From Terriglobia bacterium (GTDB taxonomy: Bacteria > Acidobacteriota > Terriglobia > Acidiferrales > UBA7541), in contig JAIQEV010000013.1 in NCBI GenBank assembly GCA_020073585.1, positions 1-64,000 on the forward strand: 64,000 nucleotides of DNA, in the 5' to 3' direction. How positions within the stretch are numbered: position 1 is the stretch's first letter; every line of letters begins with the position of its first letter. The position numbers and the translations under genes were made by a program. A model generated the notes under the pieces. That model did not search any database and was not told the origin of the DNA. It saw only the letters and a list, made by a program, of their open reading frames with translations. Positions 6,945-10,130 of the stretch are shown in pieces.

Positions 6945-6956
6945 CCCTCCTTCCTC

Positions 6957-7053
6957 GTAGGGGCACGGCACGCCGTGCCCGCTCTTCTCGCCATGCCTGC
7001 CCCTCCTTGTCGGGGCCGTGCCCTCTGCAACACCAGCACGATTGTATGTTCCG
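6957..7053. repeat. composite repeat, family C copy 2
   Basis: GTAGGGGCACGGCACGCCGT plus GCCCGC (6957-6982) and CACCAGCACGATTGTATGTT (7031-7050) repeat the two parts seen upstream of thiG, here separated by an extra GGGGCCGTGCCC-containing insert. The region 6945-7264 otherwise holds no gene that I can support. Confidence 0.75.
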
Positions 7054-7114
7054 GCGCTGCTGTGACCGCCGCCCACCCCTCGTCATACCACCCCGCAGCC
7101 TCCATCCTCGACGT

Positions 7115-7140
7115 GTCATCCTGAGCGAAGCGAAGGATCT
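7115..7140. repeat. GTCATCCTGAGCGAAGCGAA-type repeat
   Basis: GTCATCCTGAGCGAAGCGAA followed by GGATCT. From general knowledge this string is a common intergenic repeat in many unrelated bacterial genomes; only one copy is in this window. It lies just before the low-GC two-gene insert. Confidence 0.55.
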
Positions 7141-7264
7141 CAACCGATCCCCTCTACAACTTCAGACCATTCAGGCGGGCGGTCCGGGTCTAATGGGAAG
7201 GCAGGCCACCACCGTCCCTCTTGTCGGGAATTTGATGACTTGCAATGTATACTTTCCTTATCTT

Positions 7265-8491
7265 ATGGAACTAAACCTTGCCATCCATAGCGCGACTCAA
7301 ATTCTTGAAGAAGAGCGCCGGTATCCCACGGTTGCGTACAAAGTGGTTAAGGAGCCTTCGAGCGACAAGCCTCATCCTTTGGAACGAATAGCAGACTCTG
7401 TTGATTCGCTTGCGGCCTTTCAGGAATTGCGGGATAACCGTGGTCAAAATCCGCGCACTGTGCTTAAGGGTGACTATCGATATCAGTTTCAAAGCAGCAA
7501 CTACAAGCTACTTGTGAGACTTCTAGGTCGCATTGCGGATACAGATCGGACGCCATTCCTGGAAGCGATCGCGACAAGGATGAATGACTTTCCCGGTTGC
7601 CAGAAAAACGAGAGAGCATTTTACCCGTCCTGGAATAAATGCACATCCGAGATGCCTTTGGTCGCTGAGTATGTCATTCGCAACGGCGGAAGAGAGGTGT
7701 TTTTCGAGAAACTCAAATCATCCCCGATCACCCCTGGAATGGTCATTTTGCTACTGCAGCTCGAGGACATGATTGCGCTTAACTATTCGATTTTTTCGGA
7801 GTCAGAGTACCTGATCCTGAAAACTGCTGTTGGAGAATTGGAGAAACTCGCACTCGAGACGTTCCTATATGCGAAGGAACATTCATACAGAGCCATAAGC
7901 CCCGAATGGCAGCAGTCCGGGTTCGATGGCGGTCAGGTTAGCTACGCCATCTTCGAACGTTGCGGCTCCATTGTTGAACTTTGTCGAAAAGCAGGCTTCC
8001 TACATTTGGAAAGTTCCCTCATGGAAGAGGTCAATCTTGAGATTAACCAAGACAAGTATGTCGTTGAAAATTTTCTCGAGAAACTCGGTTTCACCAAACC
8101 ACTTCTCACGTCTCTCAATGAGGCAGAACGGTTGAACCATCCCAGTGCTAGCCCACTAGAACTGAAATCCAGCATGGGACATCTGCGCAGTTTCTTGGAG
8201 CATCTTCACAAGGAGGGAATACCTCGGGTCTGCGCGAAGAAAAAAATCTCTCCCCCAGCCGACGATAAGTGGGGAACCGAACTCGCCTTTCTTCGGGTCA
8301 ACGACGTCCTATCAAGACAGGAAGAACAACTCGTCGTGGGGCTCTATGCGGTCATCAGCGACGAGGCCGTTCATCCTCTAATCGCTAGGAGAGAATATGC
8401 AAGGCTCTCCCGCAACGTGCTGATCGAATACGCGCTGCTTTTTCTTCGGAAGCTTGAAAAACTACAAGGTTCGGCGTGTGGCCCTCGATAA
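7265..8491 (+). CDS. hypothetical protein, first gene of low-GC pair
   Basis: I do not recognise this protein. From the ATG at 7265 it has 408 residues, no signal peptide and no obvious membrane segment, and looks helical and soluble. The C-terminal part (ELAFLRVNDVLSRQEEQL, then SDEAVHPLIARREYARLSRN, then LIEYALLFLRKLEKL) looks like a helical bundle ending. Base composition is clearly lower in GC and codon use is more even than in thiG or the CPBP gene, suggesting transfer. Start is uncertain: ATG 7234 has a weak GGGAA upstream, while ATG 7265 would follow a TATACT at 7248 almost leaderless. The next gene begins 82 bases later on the same strand and shares the composition. Confidence 0.7.
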   Translation: MELNLAIHSATQILEEERRYPTVAYKVVKEPSSDKPHPLERIADSVDSLAAFQELRDNRGQNPRTVLKGDYRYQFQSSNYKLLVRLLGRIADTDRTPFLEAIATRMNDFPGCQKNERAFYPSWNKCTSEMPLVAEYVIRNGGREVFFEKLKSSPITPGMVILLLQLEDMIALNYSIFSESEYLILKTAVGELEKLALETFLYAKEHSYRAISPEWQQSGFDGGQVSYAIFERCGSIVELCRKAGFLHLESSLMEEVNLEINQDKYVVENFLEKLGFTKPLLTSLNEAERLNHPSASPLELKSSMGHLRSFLEHLHKEGIPRVCAKKKISPPADDKWGTELAFLRVNDVLSRQEEQLVVGLYAVISDEAVHPLIARREYARLSRNVLIEYALLFLRKLEKLQGSACGPR

Positions 8492-8573
8492 GAGCGAGCA
8501 CCCCATCTCTCTATTCCACGCTGACCTGCAACGGTGGGGGCTGGTAAAATAATAAATTAAAGAGGCGAGCCAC

Positions 8574-9518
8574 GTGAACCTGCTCACCAATGCCGTAGAG
8601 TCAATACAGGTCGGCGTGGAAGACTACCAATCGGGCGCCCGGCCTCGGTTGCTCTCGGCTGTACGGAATATCCATGCTGGAATCTTGTTGCTTTACAAAG
8701 AGGCACTGAGGCGCGAGTCCCCTAACGACAGCAAAGATGTATTGATGATGGCGAAGATAGCTCCTTCGCGGGACCCGAACGGCAGAGTCGTGTTTGTCGG
8801 TGTCGGCAAAAACACCGTTGATGTCCGGCAAATCCGGGAGCGATTTGAGGCGTTACAGATAGGCACAGATTGGAAGCGATTCGTCCGAATAAACGAAGTA
8901 CGAAACGATGTAGAACACCTGTACCCGCGTTTGGACCAAAAAGCCTTGGAAGGTTTGATTTCTGATTCTTTCCTCCTCGTTCGAGACTTCATCGCGAATG
9001 AACTGAAGCATGACCCGCTCGAACTTCTTGGCGAGGAAACGTGGCAGACCATGTTGGAGGTCACGGAGGTATATCAGAAAGAAAGGCAGGAATGTGACCG
9101 GCTCATTGCAGGTGTGAATTGGGGTTCTCCGACATTACAAGATGGAGTGGCTGATCTGACATGCAGGGAATGTGGCTCGGACCTGCTCAAGCCGGTCGAA
9201 AGTCCAATTGGCGAAATGATCTTTCAGTGTAGCTCATGTGGGGAGGATGAAAGCCCTGAATCCTATGTACCTAAAGCGGTCGCCTTCGCGCTACGTGGTG
9301 CGAGTTACGAGGCAGTCAAAGACGGCGGAGAAACGCCTTATGTTCGCTGTCCAGAGTGTGGCGAGGAAACTTACGTAATAGAGGAACGTCGTTGCGCGCT
9401 TTGCAAGCATAAGGCGGAGCATAGCTGTGCGAGATGCGGCTGTGAAATTCCGGCGGAGGAATTAGATTCATCACCATTTTGCGGGTATTGCGCATACATG
9501 ATGAACAAGGACGACTGA
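8574..9518 (+). CDS. putative HEPN-domain protein with three C-terminal zinc ribbons
   Basis: A 314-residue soluble protein. The N-terminal 150 residues look helical and carry RNDVEH (110-115), an R-X4-H motif with a polar residue after Arg, the signature of HEPN domains, many of which are RNases in toxin-antitoxin or defence systems. The tail has six CXXC pairs (Cys197/200, 219/222, 259/262, 274/277, 285/288, 303/306), enough for three zinc ribbons. GTG at 8574 is chosen because AGAGG lies 8 bases upstream and no in-frame ATG precedes residue 58. GC content is low like the upstream gene. HEPN assignment rests on the motif and helical context, so function (RNA cleavage, antiphage, or none) is inference. 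Confidence 0.7.
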   Translation: MNLLTNAVESIQVGVEDYQSGARPRLLSAVRNIHAGILLLYKEALRRESPNDSKDVLMMAKIAPSRDPNGRVVFVGVGKNTVDVRQIRERFEALQIGTDWKRFVRINEVRNDVEHLYPRLDQKALEGLISDSFLLVRDFIANELKHDPLELLGEETWQTMLEVTEVYQKERQECDRLIAGVNWGSPTLQDGVADLTCRECGSDLLKPVESPIGEMIFQCSSCGEDESPESYVPKAVAFALRGASYEAVKDGGETPYVRCPECGEETYVIEERRCALCKHKAEHSCARCGCEIPAEELDSSPFCGYCAYMMNKDD

Positions 9519-9524
9519 AAGCGA

Positions 9525-9539
9525 GTCCGCAAAACGGAC
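9525..9539 (+). terminator. small hairpin after the HEPN-type gene
   Basis: GTCCG-CAAAA-CGGAC is a perfect 5-bp stem six bases past the stop codon, followed by AAATAAAATC rather than a T-run. It may end the transcript but is weak as an intrinsic terminator. Confidence 0.3.
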
Positions 9540-9850
9540 AAATAAAATCGCAGAGACGTATAGCGGGATAATGCGGCAGATGGCCTAGACTTCACGAGTA
9601 AGCAGGGTGGCCCTCAGTTTTAGGTGGGGCCTTTGTTCGCGGCTGGCGCACTCTTTGCCGCAGAAACCCACGCCCACCCGTTTCCCCCTGCCAGTTCGAA
9701 CAGACACCCCGCTATCCCCCGGCAGGCAAACCACTTATCAGTATCTAATTGACAACCAGTACCTCTGCTGCTATCATTCCCCGTGAATCGCGGCCCGCAC
9801 CTCCGCCCGCTCCCCTCATTACCTCTCCTTACTTCACAACTTCATCTCAC

Positions 9851-10128
9851 GCTCTTCCAAAAACCGGAGCGCCCCGCAACTCTCCTGCAATCAATGAATT
9901 GCCCACTCTTTGCACTCTTCCAAAAACCGGAGCGCGCCGCAACCCTCCCGGAATCAAAAGCATGCGCACTCTTTGCAAAAACACCGGGGGTGTGGGGCCT
10001 TACTTTCAACTTTCAACTGTCAACTTTTAACTCCCTTGCCATCAGCAGTTCCAAAACAAAGGACTTCATCTCTACTGGAATCTGCAGTTACAAGAAAACC
10101 AGGGGGGTGGGGGTCATTCTGTTAACCA
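9851..10128. repeat. degenerate 62-bp tandem units plus G-rich element
   Basis: CTCTTCCAAAAACCGGAGCG occurs at 9852 and again at 9915 (period about 62), with a third, shortened unit (GCACTCTTTGCAAAAACACC) near 9966 running into GGGGGTGTGGGG. A second G-rich block, GGGGGGTGGGGGT (10102-10114), ends in TTCTGTTAACCA. The same G-run plus TTCTGTTAACCA ending recurs at 49395-49419, so this is a dispersed composite repeat. Confidence 0.6.
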
Positions 10129-10130
10129 GC

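Follow-up and report, generated by a model that had tools for sequence, protein, structure and literature searches.

Does the two-gene island between thiG and a CPBP gene encode one defence module, or have two separate genes come to lie at the same site? An earlier note on this DNA had proposed the former, an undescribed pair made up of a protein without assigned function (gene A) and a HEPN-type protein (gene B). The question was followed in the window, that is, the whole 64-kb stretch analysed, and in related genomes, plasmids and viral contigs. The features are collected in Table 1.

Table 1. Positions of the features discussed, numbered along the window
Feature	Position	Strand	Description
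Segment missing from closest sister genome	7058-9613	.	Sister has ~670 mostly unrelated bases instead
Gene A	7265-8491	+	408 aa, ATG start; function unassigned; not linked to gene B elsewhere
Promoter-like site of gene B's own	8521-8550	+	CTGACC-18-TAAAAT, TG before the -10; consensus match only
Gene B	8574-9518	+	314 aa, GTG start; HEPN and three zinc ribbons; PADLOC PDC-S64 member
N-terminal HEPN domain of gene B (model)	8574-9023	+	Residues 1-150; helices 3-20, 23-48, 100-114 and 122-143; beta hairpin 59-81 before the third core helix
Predicted RNase motif	8901-8918	+	R110-N111-D-V-E114-H115, end of helix 100-114; invariant residues
Three zinc ribbons (cysteines in homologue alignment)	9162-9491	+	C197/C200/C219/C222; C259/C262/C274/C277; C285/C288/C303/C306

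Composition of the island

The two genes together have a GC content of 0.506 (0.495 for gene A and 0.520 for gene B), whereas the mean of the whole window is 0.654 (sd 0.034). When all segments of 2254 bases in the 64-kb stretch were compared, the lowest GC content was found for the one starting at 7251, which corresponds to the A+B pair. The GC3 values are 0.54 for gene A and 0.55 for gene B against 0.82-0.91 in thiG, the CPBP gene and two further neighbours. The codon use of the two genes correlates with that of these four neighbours at 0.03-0.28, whereas the neighbours correlate with one another at 0.61-0.96. Therefore, the GC minimum, the deviant GC3 and the poor codon-use correlation indicate a real island that chance would not be expected to produce. 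The lower GC content and different codon use relative to thiG and the CPBP gene had been claimed in the earlier note and were confirmed in all three measures, and the two genes do lie on the same strand with 82 bases between them. The reading frame of gene A stays open upstream of its ATG at 7265. The description of the flanks as repeat-rich holds weakly, for one 63-nt tandem pair (9852-9977) and two weak pairs were found. The copies of the tandem pair are 84% identical and lie downstream of the CPBP gene, in DNA that does not code for protein; the pair is also present in the sister genome.

A site of variable cargo

The thiG and CPBP genes are convergent neighbours in the 24 congeners examined. 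The interval between them, which corresponds to 6945-10130 of the window, ranges from 679 to 6144 bases in these genomes and holds varying genes, and neither gene A nor gene B occurs in it in any of the 24. The thiG-CPBP interval is thus a variable-cargo site in the genus. DinB-like, permease-like and response-regulator-like genes, among others, were seen there (names assigned by eye). The closest sister genome, with a CPBP gene 92% identical, is without both genes; the flanking sequence is shared as far as about 7057 and again from about 9614. Integration linked to a tRNA was rejected, since the window contains no tRNA genes.

A stretch of 29 bases in the gap between genes A and B (8501-8529) matches the interval of the sister genome at 90%, and near-copies of it are found at three more places in that genome. 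It is perhaps a dispersed leader element. The match hints at separate arrivals of the two genes, one on each side of an element that was already present; alternatively, the 29 bases could be a dispersed repeat that was picked up later.

Linkage of genes A and B

If the two genes formed one toxin-antitoxin or sensor-effector module, gene A would sense or neutralise and gene B would be the RNase. The common strand, the short gap and the similarly low GC content speak for such an arrangement. However, gene A occurs in 0 of 36 distinct gene B loci, within the sequence stretch examined per locus, and gene B is present in none of the 7 other genomes that carry gene A and at none of the gene A loci. 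A promoter-like site between the two genes also speaks against the module; the consensus scan that gave this candidate found four such sites in the region where 1.9 were expected. The 29 bases of the gap, matched in a sister interval that holds neither gene, fit separate arrival. The two-gene A+B module was rejected on the linkage data, and on all the evidence a functional partnership is very improbable. The undescribed module of the earlier note is therefore not borne out, because the two genes are unlinked in all of the 36 gene B loci and 7 gene A genomes, an outcome that the note itself had named as refuting the pair, and because gene B already belongs to a PADLOC family. Also, no minimal nucleotidyltransferase antitoxin of the kind that marks HEPN-MNT systems is adjacent to gene B.

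Gene A itself is a rare gene, and an antitoxin role for it is without support. Searches of Pfam, NCBIfam, PHROGs and the PDB gave no match for it, and no nucleotidyltransferase match was obtained in Pfam, PADLOC or NCBIfam. One other genome was found in a search of 297 genomes of the phylum, and a two-row profile run on 399 genomes of the class found 7 others (6 full-length and 1 partial); homologues were absent from the viral contigs searched. A relation to HEPN proteins, Abi_C (PF14355) or AbiJ was considered, and no Pfam match was found in gene A or its homologues; hhalign against a single AbiJ/Abi_C protein, one target sequence, gave a probability of 0.4%. The hhalign comparison with the gene B family was negative. 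A single-sequence structure model of gene A reached a pLDDT of 35 and was too poor for use. The last 110 residues resemble the C-terminal end of a 258-aa protein in another genome and, weakly, that of a protein encoded on a phage-like scaffold, both without assigned function. From these resemblances, the C-terminal part may be a mobile and possibly undescribed domain. Proteins of ~260 aa that share or resemble it lie at L054 5983-6759 and L149 1419-2219, one of them on a phage-like scaffold.

Family and fold of gene B

Gene B matches the PADLOC family PDC-S64 (PDLC05058) over its full length, with an E value of 1.9e-52 and 176.9 bits, residues 2-314 being aligned on profile positions 9-305 of 305. 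By this profile match the gene is already catalogued, and its family is not an undescribed one. PDC is the PADLOC label for phage-defence candidates, and PDC-S64 is such a candidate family. The PDC families were reportedly introduced in a preprint. None of the papers in the collection searched names PDC-S64, and we know of no activity recorded for any member of the family. In Pfam and NCBIfam, gene B obtained weak zinc-ribbon matches only.

An AlphaFold2 model of gene B was built on an alignment of 22 homologous sequences and has a pLDDT of 90.1. In structural comparison with VIA-align, the top row was AF0298 (2hsb) with a Z score of 11.2 over 115 residues and an rmsd of 2.5 A, followed by Csm6 (9.8), MntA-HepT structures (9.2-9.4, HepT itself at 9.4), several HEPN-MNT toxins (8-9) and AbiV (6.3). 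Nearly all of the best 15 rows are HEPN or related nucleotidyltransferase-associated domains, aligned on residues 1-150. Z scores of 9-11 are not extreme for helical bundles, and clearly unrelated bundles enter the list from about 7.6. Foldseek gave nothing against the PDB at E<=0.001 and one borderline match against viral models, a protein without assigned function. The fold was therefore assigned because HEPN proteins head the structural list and the motif is present, Foldseek alone not being significant. Both the HEPN fold and the completeness of its catalytic signature are strongly supported, and the model contains the four-helix bundle that the earlier note had expected of the 314-residue protein.

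The RNDVEH motif, correctly read in that note at residues 110-115, is placed where the superfamily has its RNase motif, namely at the end of the third core helix (PMC3710099). The HEPN pattern of R-x4-6-H with a polar residue after the arginine is present in gene B as R110-N111-x-x-E114-H115. All four named residues are invariant in the 22 homologues, the lowest identity among which is 28%, while the adjacent residues vary. The invariant signature suggests catalysis by gene B. The three zinc ribbons claimed for the second gene were likewise recovered; eleven of their cysteines are invariant in the 22 homologues and the twelfth position is cysteine or histidine in most. Weak matches of the ribbons to those of RNA polymerase RPB9 and ribosomal eL37 are no more than a hint. 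Two homologues (L037 and L039) deviate from the others around the last ribbon, and the adjacent gene there resembles a T7-like terminase when judged by eye.

Spread and genomic company of gene B

Relatives of gene B were found in 13 plasmid records (7 predicted conjugative), in 20 IMG/VR contigs and, among 297 genomes sampled from the phylum, in 5, of which the source genome is one. In a Methylomonas plasmid the homologue comes directly after HmaB/HmaC (Hma-type methylase/ATPase) genes, and in a Bradyrhizobium barranii plasmid after ietAS and an AbiJ_NTD3/Abi_C protein. It adjoins AbiEi/AbiEii in a B. quebecense plasmid, and ThsB (Thoeris) and SduA (Shedu) in a Rhizobium plasmid. Other loci contain AIPR (L002), Mrr with type I restriction (L021) or RmrA (L023). 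Further copies lie among conjugation, SOS-type (SOS-peptidase/UmuDC) or transposase genes, and the copies on phage contigs lie between structural or integrase genes, as read by eye. This company fits mobile defence cargo as far as raw co-occurrence goes, but roughly half of the ten plasmid neighbourhoods with annotation are without a named defence gene, and PADLOC candidates are themselves picked by association of this kind. The mobility of gene B and its recurrent defence, prophage and plasmid company are strongly supported. On an Acidobacteria gp2 contig, the first 50 residues of a homologue (84% identical) are followed by unrelated sequence, which is a truncated copy (L003 6001-6150).

The plasmid copies bear on two other readings. 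Gene B could be a HEPN toxin of the classical type that serves element maintenance rather than phage defence, its antitoxin (a small RNA or an unlinked protein) being encoded elsewhere. HEPN toxins such as HepT stand high in the structural list, the gene is carried on conjugative plasmids, and an AbiF system that is encoded by a phage and regulated through RNA is known (PMC12373285); however, no conserved second gene adjoins gene B in the loci inspected, and we regard this reading as unlikely. Still less probable is that gene B acts as a HEPN factor in regulation or RNA processing, with ribbons that bind nucleic acid, and that mobile elements carry it for their own gene control. The RPB9 and eL37 matches would suit it, as would those plasmid copies that adjoin SOS-peptidase/UmuDC and conjugation genes, but the full R-N-x-x-E-H signature is invariant and suggests catalysis, and no other recurrent company is as striking as the defence genes.

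Proposed role of gene B

The reading that we prefer, at a probability of roughly 0.68, is that gene B is a lone, horizontally acquired PDC-S64 HEPN RNase that serves as infection-triggered abortive-infection cargo, with gene A as a separate passenger in the same interval. HEPN enzymes with an intact motif are metal-independent RNases (PMC3710099) and usually dimers. Gene B would likewise cut RNA as a dimer and without metal at the R110/H115 site, and would be kept inactive as long as the cell is not infected. Binding of a phage product or a nucleic acid by the zinc-ribbon part would switch on the RNase, which would then halt the infected cell in the manner of abortive infection. Gene A would be neither partner nor antitoxin. 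A wider proposal, which we offer tentatively and hold to be rather doubtful, is that PDC-S64 proteins are self-contained RNases whose three ribbons sense infection through phage nucleic acid or a component of transcription or translation, so that one protein of 314 residues both senses and kills in phages, plasmids and chromosomes.

Gene B is a further member of a catalogued but uncharacterised family. The HEPN call was right, and its defence-type character is supported by the fold, the R-N-x-x-E-H signature, the PDC-S64 match, the defence neighbourhoods and the carriage on prophages and plasmids; the module call was wrong. A false two-gene module is thereby removed from consideration, and a vague HEPN island becomes a testable single-gene candidate, whose family is small, has the RNase signature invariant and is spread widely over phages, plasmids and chromosomes.

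Comparison with known systems

Compared with PDC-S64, no difference was found in the full-length match. With MntA-HepT and other HEPN-MNT systems, gene B has the HEPN fold in common (Z up to 9.4), but no minimal nucleotidyltransferase gene adjoins it. The fold is also common to the CRISPR ancillary RNases Csm6 and Csx1 (Csm6 Z 9.8), whereas gene B has no room for their CARF domain, residues 150-314 being short helices and zinc ribbons. CoCoNuTs and other restriction components with HEPN and zinc ribbons resemble gene B in that HEPN RNase and ribbons occur in one defence system (PMC11090510, PMC3710099). However, CoCoNuTs are made up of several genes and include McrB GTPases (PMC11090510), and gene B is one small protein.

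The nearest precedent that is known to work is Tha (tail-activated HEPN anti-phage protein), a HEPN RNase that acts alone and is encoded by S. aureus prophages. This protein of 301 aa stays inactive until a tail protein of the phage is present, whereupon it degrades RNA, and protection is lost when its histidine is mutated (PMC11087260). Tha and gene B are alike in being one prophage-borne protein of about 300 aa with an R-x4-H motif beginning with RN, and the HEPN domain of Tha, as that of gene B, resembles HEPN-MNT toxin and Csm6 (PMC11087260). The two differ, as compared by description, in that the HEPN domain of Tha is at the C-terminal end with zinc not mentioned (PMC11087260), whereas that of gene B is at the N-terminal end and is followed by three ribbons. 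From the economy of Tha, and from the ribbons taking the place of its N-terminal part, we infer that the ribbons may hold gene B off or sense infection.
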